From assembly GCA_026399015.1 (NCBI GenBank), contig JAPLRS010000030.1:1-64000 (forward strand): 64,000 bases of DNA, read 5' to 3'. The notes under the pieces were generated by a model, which searched no databases, was not told the DNA's origin, and saw only the letters and a list, made by a program, of their open reading frames with translations. This document shows, piece by piece, positions 13,457 through 32,040 of the stretch; positions within the stretch are counted from its first letter, which is position 1; every line of letters begins with the position of its first letter. Source of the DNA: Methylococcales bacterium. GTDB taxonomy: Bacteria > Pseudomonadota > Gammaproteobacteria > Methylococcales > Methylomonadaceae. The position numbers and the translations under genes were made by a program.

Positions 13457-15724
13457 ATGACATCCAAGTCTAAAAAAGCAGTTGATTTTAATTCAACAAA
13501 AGATCCATACGCTGAGCGTGAAGCTGAAAAGTATGAAAACCCAATTCCAAGTCGAGAGCTTATTCTTGCTGCTTTAGAGCACGCCGGTAAAACTTTATCG
13601 CGTAGTGAGATTGCTAAAGTTTTTAATCTTGAAGACGAAGATGATCTTGAGGCTTTGAGACGTCGATTAAGAGCCATGGAGCGGGATGGCCAAGTTCTTT
13701 ACAATCGCGGTCAGCAATATTGTTTAGTTAATAATAAAGATTTAATTGTTGGGCGTATTATTGGCCACCCTGATGGCTACGGCTTTTTAAGGCCTGATGA
13801 TGGTTCTGACGATTTATATTTGTCACCCCGAGAAATGAATCCGCTGTTACATAACGATAGAGCTATGTTAAGGATTGCAGGGATAGATAAAAAGGGCCGT
13901 AGAGAAGGCGCCGTTGTAGAAATCTTAGAACGTAATACCCATCAAATAGTAGGAAGACTCTATGAAGAAGATGGTTTTACTTATGTAGTCCCTGATAATA
14001 AAAACATCGCTCAAACCTTGTTAGTGCAAGCTGGTGGTGTGGCCGATGCTCAGCATGGTCAAATTGTTATTGCAGAAGTCACCGAACAACCCACCAAATT
14101 ACACCAACCTATCGGCAGAATTATTGAAGTACTAGGTGACCATTTAGCGCCTGGTATGGAAATAGAAATGGCTATTCGCTCATACGAGTTACCTAATGTG
14201 TGGCCAGCTGAATTACTTGAAGAAATAAAATCCCTGTCTGCAGAAGTACCCGAAGCGGCTAAAGAAGGTCGCGTCGATTTACGTAGCACTCCCTTAGTTA
14301 CGATTGATGGTGAAGATGCGCGGGATTTTGATGATGCGGTTTTTTGTAAGAAAACCCCAAAAGGATGGAAACTATTAGTTGCTATTGCAGATGTCTCGCA
14401 TTATGTGCAAGTAGAGACCGAGCTAGATAAAGAAGCTAAAAATCGTAGTACATCGGTTTATTTTCCTGAGCAAGTTATTCCGATGTTGCCTGAGATTTTA
14501 TCTAACGGTCTATGTTCGCTTAATCCACATGTTGATCGTTTATGTATGGTTTGTGAACTGTTCATTGATGCTGAGGGGCAAGTTTCGCGCAGTCGTTTTT
14601 ATGATGCGGTGATGCAATCTCACGCCCGATTAACTTATACAGAAGTCGCTAAGATTTTAGTGGATGGCGATCAAGAGTTAGCCGACAAATATAAGCATGT
14701 GTTACCCCAGTTACGTGAACTTTACGCTTTATATAAGGTGATGCGTATTAGTCGTGAAGTACGCGGTGCGATGGATTTTGATACCCAAGAAACGCGTATT
14801 ATGTTTGGTAGCAATCGTAAAATTGAAAAAATAGTGCCCGTCGTGCGTAATGATGCGCATAAACTGATTGAAGAGTTTATGATCACAGCGAATAGCGCGG
14901 CGGCAAAATATTTAAATGCTAAGAAAATCCCTAAGTTGTTGCGTATTCATGAGGGGCCTAGTTCAGATAAATTACTTAATCTAAAAACTTTCTTAGGCGA
15001 GTTAGGCTTAAAGTTTGGTGGCGGTGAAAGTCCTACACCGTTAGATTATATGCATTTGGTAGAGGCTGTTAAAGATAGACCCGATGCGCATTTGATTCAA
15101 ACCGTATTATTAAGATCAATGTCTCAGGCGGTTTATAGTCCTGATATTAAAGGTCATTTTGGTTTAGCTTTAGAGGCCTACGCGCATTTTACTTCGCCTA
15201 TTAGACGTTATCCTGATTTATTGGTACATCGAGCTATTAGACATTGTTTGGAAGGTAAATCTCCAGAAAGCTTTGTATACGGCATGCCAGAAATGATTAT
15301 GCTGGGTGAGCATTGTTCGGCAAATGAGCGCAGAGCTGATGATGCTACTCGTGATGTGGTCAGTTGGCTTAAATGTGAATATATGCTGGATAAGATCGGA
15401 GAAGAGTTCTCCGGTATCATTTCCGCGGTTACTTCATTTGGATTTTTTGTTGAATTGGCTGATATTTATGTAGAAGGTTTAGTTCATATCAGTAATTTGG
15501 GGCAAGATTATTTCCATTTTGATCCAACCAGTCACCAATTAAAAGGTGAACGCACCAATACCAATTATCGTTTGGGTGATACGGTTAAGATTAGAGTGAT
15601 GCGCGTTGATTTAGATGAAAAGAAAATGGACTTTGAGCTGGTGCACAAAGAAGGCTCTGTTAACAAACTAGCGAGCGATGATAAACCTAAAAAGAAACGC
15701 CGTAAGAAAAAGACAAATAAATGA
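13457..15724 (+). CDS. rnr: Ribonuclease R
   Basis: 755 residues; a processive 3'-5' exoribonuclease that degrades structured RNA. Order of domains: winged-helix N-terminus (~30-85), cold-shock domains (IVGRIIGHPDGYGFLRPDD, then a second), the RNB catalytic domain with DGEDARDFDDAVF (~residue 287), an S1 domain with FSGIISAVTSFGFFVEL, and a Lys/Arg-rich C-terminal tail ending in KPKKKRRKKKTNK. The four Asp residues of the RNB active site are within DARDFDDA. It overlaps rlmB by ATGA at 15721-15724, the same pair as in E. coli. Confidence 0.96.
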   Translation: MTSKSKKAVDFNSTKDPYAEREAEKYENPIPSRELILAALEHAGKTLSRSEIAKVFNLEDEDDLEALRRRLRAMERDGQVLYNRGQQYCLVNNKDLIVGRIIGHPDGYGFLRPDDGSDDLYLSPREMNPLLHNDRAMLRIAGIDKKGRREGAVVEILERNTHQIVGRLYEEDGFTYVVPDNKNIAQTLLVQAGGVADAQHGQIVIAEVTEQPTKLHQPIGRIIEVLGDHLAPGMEIEMAIRSYELPNVWPAELLEEIKSLSAEVPEAAKEGRVDLRSTPLVTIDGEDARDFDDAVFCKKTPKGWKLLVAIADVSHYVQVETELDKEAKNRSTSVYFPEQVIPMLPEILSNGLCSLNPHVDRLCMVCELFIDAEGQVSRSRFYDAVMQSHARLTYTEVAKILVDGDQELADKYKHVLPQLRELYALYKVMRISREVRGAMDFDTQETRIMFGSNRKIEKIVPVVRNDAHKLIEEFMITANSAAAKYLNAKKIPKLLRIHEGPSSDKLLNLKTFLGELGLKFGGGESPTPLDYMHLVEAVKDRPDAHLIQTVLLRSMSQAVYSPDIKGHFGLALEAYAHFTSPIRRYPDLLVHRAIRHCLEGKSPESFVYGMPEMIMLGEHCSANERRADDATRDVVSWLKCEYMLDKIGEEFSGIISAVTSFGFFVELADIYVEGLVHISNLGQDYFHFDPTSHQLKGERTNTNYRLGDTVKIRVMRVDLDEKKMDFELVHKEGSVNKLASDDKPKKKRRKKKTNK

Positions 15725-25866: not shown

Positions 25867-26409
25867 ATGAAAGAACGTATTTTAGCAGTAGCAGTTTTAA
25901 CTGGTGTTTGTGGTTTGGCTCAAGCGGATGATATTTCAAATGCTAATGCTGCAGGTTCAGTTGATATATTCCAAGTTGCTAGTACTATTACTACTGGTGG
26001 TACATTAGACGTTACAACTACTGCAACTAATGAAGTTAATGTAATATTAGGTAACGGTGCGGATAATACTATCGGTATTACACAAGCTTCAGGTACTTCA
26101 TTTGCAAATGTTTTAATAAATGCACAATTACCTGATGATGCTAACACTGGTTTAGGTAATCGTTTAACTGGTCATGTTGCTGATAGTTCGGTTGCTGCAG
26201 CTGGTGCAGTTGGTTCGACTTATGATGCTACTACTACAGACGGCGGTAACACAAATGTTGTTGCTTTAACTCAAAATAATGCTGGTGATGTTGCTAACAT
26301 TTCTGTTGATGGAAGTGCTAATAACTTAACTGTGAGTCAAAGTAACGATGGTGCAGTTTTAAACATGACATTACATGGTACTGGAACTGCTTATACTATT
26401 GCTCAATAA
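25867..26409 (+). CDS. Curlin-like fibre subunit (CsgA-like)
   Basis: 180 residues. Signal peptide ends at AQA-DD (1-21). The C-terminal half has curlin-type strands: VVALTQNNAGDVANISVDGS, then NNLTVSQSNDGAVLNMTLHG and TAYTIAQ, with regularly spaced Gln and Asn separated by about 22 residues. An earlier strand pair, NEVNVILGNGADNTIGITQA, fits the same ladder. Such repeats form the amyloid core of curli. Repeats are fewer and less regular than in E. coli CsgA, so it could be a minor or nucleator-type subunit. The csgE-csgF-csgG genes directly downstream support the assignment. AGGAAATCAAA precedes the ATG. Confidence 0.72.
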   Translation: MKERILAVAVLTGVCGLAQADDISNANAAGSVDIFQVASTITTGGTLDVTTTATNEVNVILGNGADNTIGITQASGTSFANVLINAQLPDDANTGLGNRLTGHVADSSVAAAGAVGSTYDATTTDGGNTNVVALTQNNAGDVANISVDGSANNLTVSQSNDGAVLNMTLHGTGTAYTIAQ

Positions 26410-26445: not shown

Positions 26446-26483
26446 AGCCGCAGCCTTTTAATTAAGGTTGTGGCTTTTTTTTT
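26446..26483 (+). terminator. Strong rho-independent terminator after the curlin-like gene
   Basis: AGCCGCAGCCTT (26446-26457) pairs with AAGGTTGTGGCT (26464-26475), with one G-U pair, followed by nine T. It makes the subunit gene a separate transcript from csgEFG, the usual way to express much more subunit than export machinery. Confidence 0.9.
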
Positions 26484-26493
26484 GCTTATTATC

Positions 26494-26527
26494 TTGTCAT
26501 CAAAATGTCATGTTAATTCATTAATAT
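26494..26527 (+). promoter_or_regulatory. Putative Pho-box promoter for csgEFG
   Basis: TTGTCATCAAAATGTCAT (26494-26511) matches 15 of 18 positions of the PhoB box CTGTCATAWAWCTGTMAY, with the two TGTCAT repeats 11 bp apart. Exactly 10 bp later comes TAATAT (26522-26527), a possible -10 and the spacing seen at E. coli phoA. A weaker second box begins at 26655. TTGTCA also resembles a -35, so chance is not excluded. Confidence 0.4.
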
Positions 26528-26820
26528 TTAGAGTGATATTCATTCTAATGATCTCCTAATAGCGAAGTTATGTTTTGTAATGATTGAGTGCACTGGGTAT
26601 TCGCAATGCATTTTATAAATCGCCTAGTTGTTAAGATATTTTTCTGTAATACATCTGTCATATTCTTGTTAAATGTTGATTTTATTTCATATAAAATCAA
26701 TAAAACCCCGTATTTATCTGTATTTTAAGTATTTTTATCTTTACTTGGGTTTTTTTATATTATATTATTTAACAAAATTAAATTCTACGGAAATATTAAC
26801 TTAACTTTTTGGTGGTATCT
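26528..26820 (+). other. Long AT-rich leader of csgEFG
   Basis: No gene is apparent. It holds a 10-bp perfect inverted repeat, TTGATTTTAT (26676-26685) / ATAAAATCAA (26691-26700), and a weaker Pho-like repeat CTGTCAT at 26655. If the upstream promoter is used, the 5' leader is about 290 nt. Confidence 0.4.
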
Positions 26821-27641: not shown

Positions 27642-29332
27642 ACACTAACTTAATTAAAAATATTATTGGCTTATTGGTAATACTAAGTATTTCTGCTTGT
27701 TCTAGTTCAATACAACCCGTTAGTTCTGATAAGGCGACTACAGACTATCATTCACAAATATCAGATTTATTACGTAATTTACCACCGCCAAAAAAACCAA
27801 TTGTTGTTGGAGTATATAAGTTTCGCGATCAAACTGGACAATATAAGAGTAGTGAATCTTTAACTCAATATTCAACAGCGGTTACCCAAGGTGGCACATC
27901 AATGCTGATAAGAGCTTTGATGGAAGCCGGAAATGGTCGTTGGTTTACTGTGTTAGAGCGCGAAGGTTTAACAGATTTGATGAATGAACGTAAAATCATT
28001 AACCAAACTCGAGAGTCTCATTTATCAGAAGCTGAAAAAAACTCTGATAAAGCTAAGTTACCTCCAATGTTATATGCCCCAGTATTATTAGAGGGCGGGG
28101 TTATTGCCTATGAAACTAATTTATTAACAGGTGGCGTTGGGGCGCGTTATTTTGGTATCGGTGGTTCAACAGAGTTTAGACGTGACACGGTTACTAGCAT
28201 GTTAAGGGCTGTTGCGGTAACAAATGGTGAGATATTAAATCATGTTGATAGTCGTAAAACTATATTTTCCATGCAGATGGATTCTGGTTTATATCGCTAT
28301 GTTAGTTACCAACGTCTCATGGAGTTTGAAGCGGGGATTAGTAGCAATGAACCACCACAAATGGCTGTTCTTGAATCGATTGAGGCTTGTGTTTACGCCA
28401 TGATTGTTGAGGGTTTGATTAAGAATAATTGGGCCTTAGCAGATCCTAGTAAGAAAAATGCCTTGATTGCTCATTATTTAAATAAAAATATTCCAGAAGC
28501 AACAGGCTCAAATGATGCTGATAAAAAAGACGATGATAATAATAAAGATAATAAGACTGTAAATGATGTAGACAAAAATGTTAGTTTAGAAAAAACTAAT
28601 CAAGCTGAAGAGCAAAAAATAAAAGATGAGCAAGAAGCTAAGTTAATTGCCGCTCAACGAGTCAATGAAGATCAGGTTAATAAAGCATTAATTGAGAAAA
28701 AACTTGAAGATGAAGACCAAGCTAAATTGTTGGCTGAACAAAGGCTAAAAGATGTGCAACAAGCAAAAGCAGTTTTAGAGCAGAAACTAAATGAAGTACA
28801 AGCTAAAGCAGATGAAAAGTCTCGTGCAATAGCCGAAACAGAAGCTCAACTGGCTCAGAAGCAAGCTGAAAAACAAGAAAAAATGGAAGAAAAAGCGCGT
28901 AGAAAAGCTGAAAGAGAAGAGCAATACGCTAAAGCCAAAGCTGAGCAAGTTGCTTTAGCAGAACAGAAAGCAAAAGAGAAAGCTGAGAAAGTGACGCAAT
29001 GGTTAGCTGCTATAAAGGCAAAAGCAGAGAAAAGAGCTAAGATAAAAGCTGAAAGAGAAGAGCAATACGCTAAAGCCAAAGCTGAGCAAGTCGCTTTAGC
29101 AGAACAAAAAGCAAAAGAGAAAGCTGAGAAAGAAGCGCAATGGTTAGCTGCTATAAAGGCAAAAGCAGAGGAACGAGCTAAGATAAAAGCTGAGAAAGAG
29201 GCGCAATGGTTAGCCGCAATAAAGGCAAAAGCAGATGAAAAAGCTCGTAGAAAAGCTGAAATAGAAAATATTGATCTTGAAAAAAAGTTAAATCAAGATC
29301 CATTATTACCAGAAAAACCACCTGTATTTTAG
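27638..29332 (+). CDS. csgG: CsgG curli export channel with long helical C-terminal extension
   Basis: 564 residues, twice the usual ~277. Lipoprotein signal with Cys 21 (SISAC). Residues ~22-285 are a complete CsgG domain: LRNLPPPKKPIVVGVYKFRD, then DQTGQYKSSES, TSMLIRALMEAG, FTVLEREGLTDLMNERK and RRDTVTSMLRAVAVTNGEIL. CsgG forms a nonameric outer-membrane pore for curlin secretion. After an acidic linker (~290-310), residues ~320-550 are an Ala/Lys/Glu-rich coiled-coil of TolA type, including two 47-residue repeats (141 bp; starts near 28903 and 29044) and a partial third (29185). The end is PLLPEKPPVF. The extension should be periplasmic and might reach the peptidoglycan or CsgE. The stop codon overlaps that of lnt. 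Confidence 0.9.
   Translation: MNTNLIKNIIGLLVILSISACSSSIQPVSSDKATTDYHSQISDLLRNLPPPKKPIVVGVYKFRDQTGQYKSSESLTQYSTAVTQGGTSMLIRALMEAGNGRWFTVLEREGLTDLMNERKIINQTRESHLSEAEKNSDKAKLPPMLYAPVLLEGGVIAYETNLLTGGVGARYFGIGGSTEFRRDTVTSMLRAVAVTNGEILNHVDSRKTIFSMQMDSGLYRYVSYQRLMEFEAGISSNEPPQMAVLESIEACVYAMIVEGLIKNNWALADPSKKNALIAHYLNKNIPEATGSNDADKKDDDNNKDNKTVNDVDKNVSLEKTNQAEEQKIKDEQEAKLIAAQRVNEDQVNKALIEKKLEDEDQAKLLAEQRLKDVQQAKAVLEQKLNEVQAKADEKSRAIAETEAQLAQKQAEKQEKMEEKARRKAEREEQYAKAKAEQVALAEQKAKEKAEKVTQWLAAIKAKAEKRAKIKAEREEQYAKAKAEQVALAEQKAKEKAEKEAQWLAAIKAKAEERAKIKAEKEAQWLAAIKAKADEKARRKAEIENIDLEKKLNQDPLLPEKPPVF
28903..29206 (+). repeat. 141-bp tandem repeats inside csgG
   Basis: Copies start at 28903 and 29044 (141 bp, 47 codons, nearly identical). 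A third partial copy starts at 29185, lacks the middle part of the unit and continues with the conserved QWLAAIKAKA segment. High DNA identity means that copy number could change by recombination while keeping the frame. Confidence 0.85.
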
Positions 29333-30909
29333 TTTTTACACTTTTTTGATAGATTAATTAATATAACAAGTATAAGAGCTGTCCATAATCCCCCTGGTAC
29401 CAACCAAAACCACTTTTGGTAGAAAGTGCTTGGGGGATTTTTCAAATAAGGTACTTCATAAATGCCAGCCCAAGGTTCATGAATGGGTGAAAGCTCCAAA
29501 ATTTCACCAGATGCCAAAGAAACTGTTGAAATACCAGTATTTGTAACTCTTAACACCGGTCTTCTAAATTCAACGCCTCTCGCTAATGTCATGTACATAT
29601 GTTGATAGGGTTCTTGCCAATTGCCATACCAGGAATCGTTAGTCACATTGACAATAAATTGGGCACCTAACTGCGCCAAAGATTTTGAAAATGCAGGAAA
29701 CAAGCTTTCGTAACAGATTTGGGCGCCGATTTTAAAATTTTGAAGTTGGAGTAATTCCTTTGGGCCTTTACCTCTAGCAAAGTGTCCAGTCTCAGGGAGC
29801 CAGTCTCTTATTTGTGGAAGATATTGCTCGCCTGGAATATATTCACCAAACGCGAGTAATATTGTTTTACTGTAATGAGGTTCAATAAGCTCACCTGTTT
29901 TATCAAGTACAAATAGTGAATTGGTAATTAAACCATTTTGTTCATCGACACTATAAGCGCCGGTGATTAAAGCTAAATTTTGTTGTTTTAAAACTTTTGA
30001 TAAAGCGGATGGTAAGGGATTTTTGGTAAATTGATGTCCCAATAAAGCCGGAAATGCGGTTTCTGGCCACAGAGCAAAATCTATTTTTTTATCGGGATTG
30101 TTTTTTAAAGCCTGTTCTGTGAGCCTCACATATCTTGTTAATATTTCTCTGCTATAACCTTTACCTAATTCGGCGGCCATTTTTTCGGAATTTTCTATGC
30201 TGGCTTGCACTAATAAAGCATTGAGTGTGGCGTCAGGCTTTTCTAGTCTGGATTTTAATTGTAAGCCTACAATATTAAATATTACGAATATACTAATTAC
30301 ACAGCCTAGAATTATTTTACCTGTAGGTGCTTTACGCTTTAACCATAGGTAATAGCATGGGATATTAAATAATAAAGTAAGTGCACTAAGGCCAGAAAAG
30401 CCAACAAGTTCTGCTAATTGGTAAAAAGGTATATTTGCACCGTACCAAGAATATCCAAAGTTCCAATCAAAAAGCGTTAAAGAGTATGTTTCTGATAGCA
30501 CAGTTATAATAGCCATTAAAATGACTGATTGTTGGGATGTGCACTTTAGAATGCGTTGGCATAAAAACCAAATTATGCCAGCCATGGGTACATATAAATG
30601 TGCAATTAAGCCATATATCAGTAAACCTATGGCTGCGAATATCCAATCTAAATGTGCAAATTCATGTAATAAATGTGCAACCCAATTAAAGCCAATTAGC
30701 GTAAAAACAAAGGAAGTTAGCAATCCCCCCAGAAATACATTTTTGAGGCTGGTTTGTTTTTGCCAAAATAACCACAAAGGTACAAAGCAAAATAAAGACG
30801 CCCATGGTGGGAATGGAATATAACTGGTGCCGATAAATACCCCAGACAACGCAGGTAATAACCAGGTTTTATTTTGCTCAGTTAAGTACCTATTAAAGAC
30901 ATTACTCAT
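29329..30909 (-). CDS. lnt: Apolipoprotein N-acyltransferase
   Basis: 526 residues. About six N-terminal membrane segments precede a nitrilase-fold domain (~230-485). The catalytic triad is in place: Glu in ALWPETAFPALL, Lys in HYSKTILLAFGEYIPG and Cys in GAQICYESLFP. It adds the third acyl chain to lipoproteins in the inner membrane. It converges on csgG with overlapping stop codons. The usual upstream corC is not present in the window. Confidence 0.95.
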   Translation of the reverse strand: MSNVFNRYLTEQNKTWLLPALSGVFIGTSYIPFPPWASLFCFVPLWLFWQKQTSLKNVFLGGLLTSFVFTLIGFNWVAHLLHEFAHLDWIFAAIGLLIYGLIAHLYVPMAGIIWFLCQRILKCTSQQSVILMAIITVLSETYSLTLFDWNFGYSWYGANIPFYQLAELVGFSGLSALTLLFNIPCYYLWLKRKAPTGKIILGCVISIFVIFNIVGLQLKSRLEKPDATLNALLVQASIENSEKMAAELGKGYSREILTRYVRLTEQALKNNPDKKIDFALWPETAFPALLGHQFTKNPLPSALSKVLKQQNLALITGAYSVDEQNGLITNSLFVLDKTGELIEPHYSKTILLAFGEYIPGEQYLPQIRDWLPETGHFARGKGPKELLQLQNFKIGAQICYESLFPAFSKSLAQLGAQFIVNVTNDSWYGNWQEPYQHMYMTLARGVEFRRPVLRVTNTGISTVSLASGEILELSPIHEPWAGIYEVPYLKNPPSTFYQKWFWLVPGGLWTALILVILINLSKKCKN

Positions 30910-31024
30910 ATTTTATGGTGTTTAGTATCTAAGAGAGGCTCTTTAGATTTAATAATAGATGTTGATTCTAGAATACTAGTAATTGTTTACGAGCTAATTA
31001 CAGCCTTAGCTGTAGTTATAAATA

Positions 31025-31080
31025 TTGTCACGTAACTGTCATTAAACTGTAAGGAGCATTTAATAGACGCTCATTATAAT
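31025..31080 (+). promoter_or_regulatory. Double Pho box with TATAAT -10 element
   Basis: Heptamers at 11-bp intervals: TTGTCAC (31025), CTGTCAT (31036), CTGTAAG (31047), then a degenerate ATTTAAT (31058). The pair CTGTCATTAAACTGTAAG agrees well with the PhoB consensus. The fourth repeat ends at 31064, exactly 10 bp before a perfect TATAAT (31075-31080). There is no -35 at the normal place, as expected where PhoB substitutes for it. It points rightward, away from lnt. Confidence 0.65.
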
Positions 31081-31086
31081 TATTTT

Positions 31087-31191
31087 GTCAACGGTAGCTT
31101 TGAAGTGTGTTTTAGAAAGCGATGTTTTCTAGATTAAATTAGTTCTAGTTGTTGTAAGCTCTCATTAGCCGCTTTTAGCGGCTATTTTTTT
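31087..31191 (+). ncRNA. Predicted PhoB-activated small RNA, about 105 nt
   Basis: A transcript starting ~7 nt after TATAAT would run to the intrinsic terminator at 31166-31191. The only short frames inside stop after a few codons, with no ribosome binding site, so it should be non-coding. No other plus-strand gene could need this terminator: upstream on this strand lies only the antisense of lnt, and parA downstream is on the minus strand. The U-rich 3' end resembles that of Hfq-dependent RNAs. Targets are unknown. The extent is inferred from promoter and terminator positions only. Confidence 0.55.
31166..31191 (+). terminator. Rho-independent terminator of the predicted small RNA
   Basis: TAGCCGC (31166-31172) pairs with GCGGCTA (31178-31184) around TTTTA, followed by a run of T to 31191. 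It is one-directional: no T-tract lies on the other strand. Confidence 0.9.
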
Positions 31192-31212
31192 GTCTGTAAT
31201 AAAGACACAGTT

Positions 31213-31239
31213 CTATACCGTTTAATTTAAACGGTATAG
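31213..31239. repeat. Near-perfect 27-bp palindrome downstream of parA
   Basis: CTATACCGTTTAA (31213-31225) is mirrored by TTAAACGGTATAG (31227-31239) around one central base. It lies 24 bp after the ParA stop and could fold as a hairpin at the end of that transcript, but no T-tract follows on either strand, so it may instead be a protein-binding site. Confidence 0.6.
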
Positions 31240-31263: not shown

Positions 31264-32040
31264 TTATTTGTGTATCTCGGCGTATAACGCTCTAAATTCA
31301 TCAGTCAATTTATGCGTAGGAGCATAATGGATTAAAGGTTGTGATACGGTATGAGATTCTCTTACTTTAATGGAAGGAGAAATCATAGAGGATAAAACAG
31401 GTAAGCCTTCTGCAATTAGTTCTTCTACCAATAAGCGTGGTAAATTTGCTTGTTTTTGGAATTGGTTAACAATAATCCCTTCGACTTCTAAGCCTTGATT
31501 ATGGTCAGCTTTAACTTCTGCTACTGAGTTCATCAAAGTATAGAGTGCTTCTCTTGCAAACGTATCACAATCGAAAGGTATTAAACATTTTTGGGCAGCG
31601 ATTAAAGCTGATTGGCTATAAAAGTTTAATACCGGAGGTGTGTCCATATATACAGCATCAAAACCTTGTAATTTTTCTAAGGCTTCTTTTAATTTAAATA
31701 TTTTAAAACGTGATTCTAAACGTGCTTGTAAAGGTTCAAGATCAGGATGTGAAGCTAAAACATACAAATTTGGAAATGGCGTTTCATGTATTAGTGCTTC
31801 TAATCCTGAGCCTTTGTCACCACCAAATAAAGAAATACTTAGCGTTTCTTTAAAAAATAGGGCGATTGTTTTATCACTGTCTGTGATCTTATTACCTAGC
31901 AAGTATTGGGTAGAGTTCCCTTGCACATCTAGATCTATAACTAGCGTGCGTTTGCCTTCCATTGCACTAATGGCGGCTAAGTTACAGGTAATGGTGGATT
32001 TACCTACACCGCCTTTCTGATTGAAGACCACTCTACGCAT
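31264..32040 (-). CDS. Orphan ParA/MinD-type ATPase
   Basis: 258 residues. Deviant Walker A KGGVGKST (residues ~9-16), switch I DLDVQGNSTQYLLG and Walker B-like AVYMDTPPVLNFYS identify a ParA family ATPase. These form nucleotide-dependent gradients on the nucleoid to position DNA or protein cargo. No parB, DNA-binding partner or parS repeat is adjacent, so this is not the chromosomal parAB locus. Its cargo is unknown. Stand-alone, 62 bp from the ybeL-like gene on the same strand and possibly co-transcribed with it. Confidence 0.85.
   Translation of the reverse strand: MRRVVFNQKGGVGKSTITCNLAAISAMEGKRTLVIDLDVQGNSTQYLLGNKITDSDKTIALFFKETLSISLFGGDKGSGLEALIHETPFPNLYVLASHPDLEPLQARLESRFKIFKLKEALEKLQGFDAVYMDTPPVLNFYSQSALIAAQKCLIPFDCDTFAREALYTLMNSVAEVKADHNQGLEVEGIIVNQFQKQANLPRLLVEELIAEGLPVLSSMISPSIKVRESHTVSQPLIHYAPTHKLTDEFRALYAEIHK

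Follow-up and report, generated by a model that had tools for sequence, protein, structure and literature searches.

A conserved candidate small RNA gene behind a PhoB-type promoter between lnt and parA in the genus of Methylobacter psychrophilus

A candidate phosphate-starvation small RNA

Analysis of a 64,000-nt stretch (hereafter the window) of a draft methylococcalean genome (2.70 Mb in 47 contigs, 86% complete) identified, on the plus strand between lnt and a parA-like gene, what is very probably the gene for a short non-coding RNA belonging to a new family, predicted to be activated by PhoB~P at phosphate starvation and to act through a conserved stretch, probably with Hfq. We favor this reading because a matrix trained on pstS promoters ranks the array upstream of the gene first in the window, and because array, spacer, a -10-like hexamer and 3' core persist at all 12 homologous loci whereas much of the remaining intergenic DNA does not; the layout of pstS promoters, the missing -35 element, the PhoB, PhoR and Hfq genes, covariation in the terminator and the want of a shared reading frame argue in the same direction. 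The array and its geometry, the terminator, the conservation of these elements and the genes for PhoB, PhoR and Hfq are direct observations. A preliminary description of this DNA had proposed that the parts fit a phosphate-starvation small RNA (sRNA), and array, geometry, terminator and conservation together support that proposal.

We propose that phosphate starvation would be relayed by PhoR to PhoB~P, from there to the sRNA and finally to base pairing. PhoB bound to the direct repeats would replace the missing -35 element and recruit sigma-70 RNA polymerase to the TATAAT, and the resulting RNA would start near 31087 and be terminated at 31191. Through the conserved stretch (31119-31165) it would then pair with mRNAs encoded elsewhere and alter their translation or stability, with Hfq most likely bound at the U-rich 3' end. 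Some 20 bp from the main array, a divergent and weaker one would probably give lnt the same control.

Genomic setting

The locus runs in the order csgEFG(+), lnt(-), the sRNA(+), parA(-), DUF1451(-), leuS(+), lptE(+) and holA(+), with lptE scoring below its own NCBIfam cut-off. The lnt gene (apolipoprotein N-acyltransferase; 29329-30909, minus strand) reaches 233 bits against TIGR00546 (cut-off 132.9) and matches PF00795 and PF20154. The parA-like ATPase gene (31264-32040, minus strand; PF13614) is convergent with the sRNA; there is no parB among the nearby open reading frames (ORFs) listed. The ATPase has relatives in Burkholderia, Zoogloea and others, with 58-64% identity.

The genus of the host is represented by 35 genomes in our comparison set. 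We refer to it as the genus of M. psychrophilus since the parA of one member (G034) is identical to that of Methylobacter psychrophilus Z-0021, and other parA sequences match records labelled Methylobacter sp. or Methylococcaceae (that of G015 matching Crenothrix polyspora). M. tundripaludum SV96 falls outside the genus on the parA tree, with no match to it among the 27 parA sequences compared.

A PhoB-type array facing the candidate small RNA

The array occupies 31025-31064 on the plus strand and reads TTGTCAC-GTAA-CTGTCAT-TAAA-CTGTAAG-GAGC-ATTTAAT; every coordinate of the double Pho box of four heptamers at 11-bp steps that had been described earlier holds in the sequence. So does its placement exactly 10 bp before a perfect TATAAT (spacer and -10 box at 31065-31080, the hexamer itself at 31075-31080), a spacing that is identical in all 12 genomes carrying the sRNA. 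In the window the hexamer 17 bp before the TATAAT is AGGAGC, which is not a -35 element, and a sigma-70 scan of the window does not list the promoter, an omission expected for an activator-dependent site. The segment thus has the sequence features of a PhoB-activated promoter, namely CTGTCAT-like repeats, 11-bp steps, 10 bp to the -10 box and no good -35.

As pstS is a hallmark PhoB target, the heptamer matrix was trained on pstS promoters of other genomes, with the sRNA promoters excluded from training; it draws on 26 of the 30 genus genomes whose pstS locus was retrieved, four (G006, G014, G002 and G003) being unfit for the array rule. The consensus heptamer obtained is CTGTCAT. By this matrix the 31025 array scores 23.4 bits, the best of all window positions on both strands (next separate site, 15.9 bits). 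In 60 simulated Markov sequences, each of 64 kb, that value is attained at 0 of 7,675,200 positions. A two-heptamer pattern, YTGTMAYNNNNYTGTMAY, has four matches in the 2.70-Mb genome, among them this array and another at window position 26644, against none for the reversed control. The earlier claim that the geometry is that of known PhoB promoters agrees with the pstS upstream regions of the genus, which likewise have heptamers at 11-bp steps followed after 10 bp by NATAAT in 22 of 30 cases, a count that is not an independent measure of the spacing since the placement rule rewards NATAAT at 10 bp. Unlike the sRNA promoter, these promoters drive a protein gene and differ in the order of strong and weak boxes.

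Four heptamers, the 10-bp spacer and a -10-like hexamer precede the sRNA at all 12 homologous loci, where array scores range from 8.7 to 25.6 bits; at 11 of them no position of the locus outscores the in-register array, which ranks second at the remaining one (G019). Two observations count against the PhoB reading: pstS lacks a full array in G006 and G014, both of which carry the sRNA, and pstS of the host was not found in its incomplete assembly.

The predicted regulator

Of the 35 genus genomes, 32 encode a PhoB above the TIGR02154 cut-off. The host is among them (G000:C37:15112-15780), and its phoB is followed by phoR, which passes both TIGR02966 and NF008235; the host PhoB falls below the stricter model NF007546 (310.5 of 471 bits), a point against the PhoB reading. 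Two further PhoB-like regulators of the host, at G000:C36:97562-98233 (280.2 bits) and G000:C14:112311-112988 (272.0 bits), score below but near the PhoB cut-off of 296.2, which speaks for the strongest competing reading, a true sRNA answering to another OmpR/PhoB-family regulator and another signal. We regard this as unlikely, given that the array was found by a matrix derived from pstS promoters.

Conservation of the locus

A nucleotide search of 61 genomes clearly recovered the region in five relatives (G011, G006, G014, G022 and G008). Array, spacer, a -10-like hexamer and terminator are kept in all five; the loss of Pho box and terminator in close relatives, named in advance as an outcome that would speak against an sRNA, did not occur. 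Across these six genomes 66 of 74 positions are invariant in 31119-31192 and 24 of 40 in the array, compared to 8 of 32 in 31087-31118 and 7 of 68 after the terminator; the corresponding figures for parA are 553 of 774 overall and 79 of 258 at third codon positions. The transcript would accordingly comprise a variable 5' part (31087-31118, plus strand), predicted to form a hairpin in several relatives, and a conserved stretch (31119-31165, plus strand) that its conservation marks as the likely pairing region, followed by the terminator.

The covariance search suggested in the preliminary description, run with a model of the 3' part, does find genus relatives, with matches in 11 of 35 genomes at E 0.01. 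G004 was added as a twelfth carrier at 33.4 bits in a search restricted to its parA locus. The sRNA is thus present in 12 of 35 genus genomes, in every case directly 3' of parA and in the same orientation, and the six more distant genus genomes likewise keep array, spacer, -10-like hexamer and terminator. It is absent from 15 other members of the genus in which the view extends 423 nt past parA, and from G023, where it extends 230 nt, and none of these has a match elsewhere in its genome; these 16 genomes count against the sRNA reading. A family-wide search with stricter filters, which missed G004, matched 13 of 237 genomes, 11 of the M. psychrophilus genus and two of another genus (G096 and G256). 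The latter two matches were rejected because they lie immediately beyond era, a gene identified by its translation, and are not the sRNA. Within the window the model also matches weakly at 13714-13787 (16.7 bits, E 0.69), probably by chance. An alignment of 22 model matches that included chance ones was left out of the analysis.

A parA tree was built from 31 rows, comprising four from outside the genus and 27 of its 29 genus rows (the partial G027 and G020 being omitted). On it the 12 sRNA-positive genomes require four changes, a number compatible with a single gain and repeated loss. Only 55 nt separate the parA match from the beginning of the lnt motif in G028, G017 and G032, as would be expected after deletion of the entire block.

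A divergent array facing lnt

The preliminary description had missed a second, weaker Pho-like array on the minus strand (30970-31003), in which CTGTAAT-N4-TCGTAAA is followed after 10 bp by TATTCT. It runs from 31003 down to 30970, lies 60 bp before the lnt start and scores 5.1 bits for its two boxes. Expressed as a pattern (a YTGT(A/C)AT heptamer and another heptamer 4 bp apart, then after 10 bp a TANNNT hexamer), it occurs in all 11 genus genomes with both sRNA and lnt in view and is absent from 21 of 21 sRNA-less loci with lnt in view, 13 of the genus and eight others, among which L084 repeats G021; the count omits G020, and there is no lnt in view in G007, G033, G012 and G023. As the pattern was written post hoc and the genomes are related, we treat this as a strong lead rather than an independent test. 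The pattern matches once more in the whole window, at 26494. The array probably places lnt under the same PhoB control.

The constant presence of this array wherever the sRNA and lnt are both in view also raises the question of whether the PhoB platform serves lnt, with the rightward transcript a by-product or a short read to a terminator that protects parA. This is improbable: the rightward array of the window is much stronger (23.4 bits over four boxes versus 5.1 over two), and the 74 nt up to the terminator are the best-conserved part of the region, which would be needless for a by-product. A combined arrangement, in which one conserved PhoB platform drives lnt one way and, the other way, a modular sRNA whose promoter, 3' core and terminator are fixed while its 5' leader changes freely, and is gained and lost as a block within one genus (among the genomes searched), appears more plausible than that, though we put it forward tentatively and at somewhat less than even chances. 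If true, it would link phosphate starvation with the maturation of envelope lipoproteins as well as with post-transcriptional control. Lipoprotein maturation uses phospholipid acyl donors, and with lnt under PhoB control it would join the phosphate response.

The predicted transcript and its terminator

The preferred reading, a PhoB-activated sRNA, predicts a transcript of about 105 nt on the plus strand from G31087, a 5' end that we infer from the -10 spacing, to the end of the U run at 31191. The intrinsic terminator (31166-31191, plus strand) has an 8-bp stem with a loop of three (31166-31184) and a run of seven T finishing at 31191, in agreement with the terminator reported about 105 nt downstream; its one-directional nature also stood, as the terminator scan lists it on the plus strand only. 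No other plus-strand gene appears to use it, just as described before: upstream there are only ORFs antisense to lnt (at most 100 aa) until csgG, which ends at 29332.

The inferred start and the terminator are 97-124 nt apart in the near genomes, six in number, and 177-413 nt apart in the other six, with 5' leaders of roughly 25 to 340 nt across the sRNA genomes; what is shared is therefore mainly the promoter and the last ~70 nt. Over the 12 genomes 95.8% of cells preserve the pairing of the terminator stem; two pairs carry changes on both sides (six cells) and the outermost pair is broken in four of the 12. Three of five covariation measures lie above all 500 shuffles (0 of 500 as high), whereas two are ordinary (330 and 482 of 500 shuffles as high) and count against it. 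Covariation support for the 5' hairpin is weak. In G011, G006 and G014 the predicted fold consists of the 5' hairpin, a nearly open stretch with a 5-bp CUAGA/UCUAG stem, and the terminator; the predicted folds pair the conserved stretch partly in G022 and G008 and largely in the window, the last being a point against its role in pairing.

All 12 sRNA genomes encode an Hfq that scores above cut-off, and the locus has, by sequence only, the attributes of an Hfq-type sRNA: its own promoter, a terminator with a U run and no conserved ORF.

Predicted pairing

Pairing was tried against 50 window genes, phoB and parA, and one exact 13-nt pattern was searched over the 12 genomes. No target stands out among the 50 window genes, where the best z of -3.1 is unremarkable for 50 tries. 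The predicted pairing of the sRNA with phoB is -11.9 kcal/mol, a single value without a control. The exact complement of the 13-nt core occurs at ten sites in the 12 genomes; seven are the sRNA itself and the three others lie within unrelated reading frames, while the reversed control gave nine. The parA start was rejected as a paired target, its z ranging from -2.4 to +1.0 over the 12 genomes with pairing not kept.

This last result bears on another reading, a cis-antisense RNA directed at the 3' end of the parA message, which the convergent layout at 12 of 12 loci favors. We consider it slightly less probable again than a by-product of lnt control: besides the failure of the predicted pairing with the parA start to be kept, a perfect palindrome directly 3' of parA (31213-31239, minus strand), a possible parA transcript end, lies just past the parA stop and ahead of the sRNA, and mere overlap would not require such sequence conservation. 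Hairpins of differing sequence, judged by eye, occur near the position of this palindrome in relatives. At the G008 locus (L037) a palindrome, GGGACAGGTCGCGACCTGTCCC, just past the sRNA terminator replaces the parA-side hairpin of the other near genomes.

The earlier statement that nothing in between encodes a protein agrees with the window transcript, which has no ORF of at least 15 aa from ATG, GTG or TTG, and no reading frame is common to the 12 sRNA loci. A transcript encoding a small protein is the least probable reading of all: a six-codon frame in the window (ATG TTT TCT AGA TTA AAT TAG at 31122, seen by eye) and ORFs of 15-65 aa in several relatives would favor it, but these ORFs look unrelated between genomes, the six-codon start is CTG in G006 and GTG in G011 and G014, and conservation extends to nearly every base and continues past the stop.

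Relationship to known small RNAs

The preliminary description could not match the phosphate-starvation sRNA to a named one, and a search of Rfam 15 (4227 families) likewise returned no window match over the gathering threshold; the sub-threshold matches include STnc240 (20.5 bits against a threshold of 55) and isrK (16.9 against 50, E 0.21). In the open-licence literature PhoB-tied sRNAs are few among the matches listed, with no natural one from a methanotroph, and searches on Methylobacter and methanotroph sRNAs gave no such RNA among the matches listed, those for Methylobacter being mostly Methylobacterium. One methanotroph paper with many uses of the term, PMC7720504, was set aside, as the portions consulted concern synthetic sRNA. 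Since neither Rfam nor the literature matches listed contain such an RNA, we class it as a new family within a kind already known, an sRNA under a nutrient-starvation regulator.

The closest likenesses, drawn for the first two by description rather than by sequence, come from other lineages. EsrL of E. coli is an sRNA tied to PhoB in excerpts of PMC10294691 and PMC12351708; the excerpt of the latter reports it as PhoB-repressed at low phosphate, and that of the former reports PhoB binding as not detected in K-12. PsiR1 of Synechocystis 6803 is, in sections of PMC5386190, a transcript induced by phosphate stress, though cyanobacterial and missing in the close strain 6714. In the alphaproteobacterium Sinorhizobium meliloti, PhoB sites are predicted for sm30 and other candidate sRNAs of intergenic regions, in contrast to which the transcripts that phosphate starvation induced there had no evident PhoB site, according to the same part of PMC2573895. 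A Pseudomonas study (PMC12506140, in part) describes sRNAs acting on phoB.

According to passages of PMC9239053, M. tundripaludum dominates the methanotrophs of a lake sediment, and there is disagreement among studies on phosphorus and methane oxidation. The present locus, which is compact, testable and from a related lineage, might offer a post-transcriptional handle on the response of methane oxidation to phosphorus.

Pho-like arrays in the curli block

Further Pho-like arrays of 10.7 and 15.9 bits lie at 26483-26684 of the window, upstream of csgE in the curli block; the G006 locus (L034) has no above-threshold array beside csgE. Just before csgE, at 25867-26409, the window encodes a repeat-rich protein with a signal-like start and without a Pfam match, perhaps a curli subunit.
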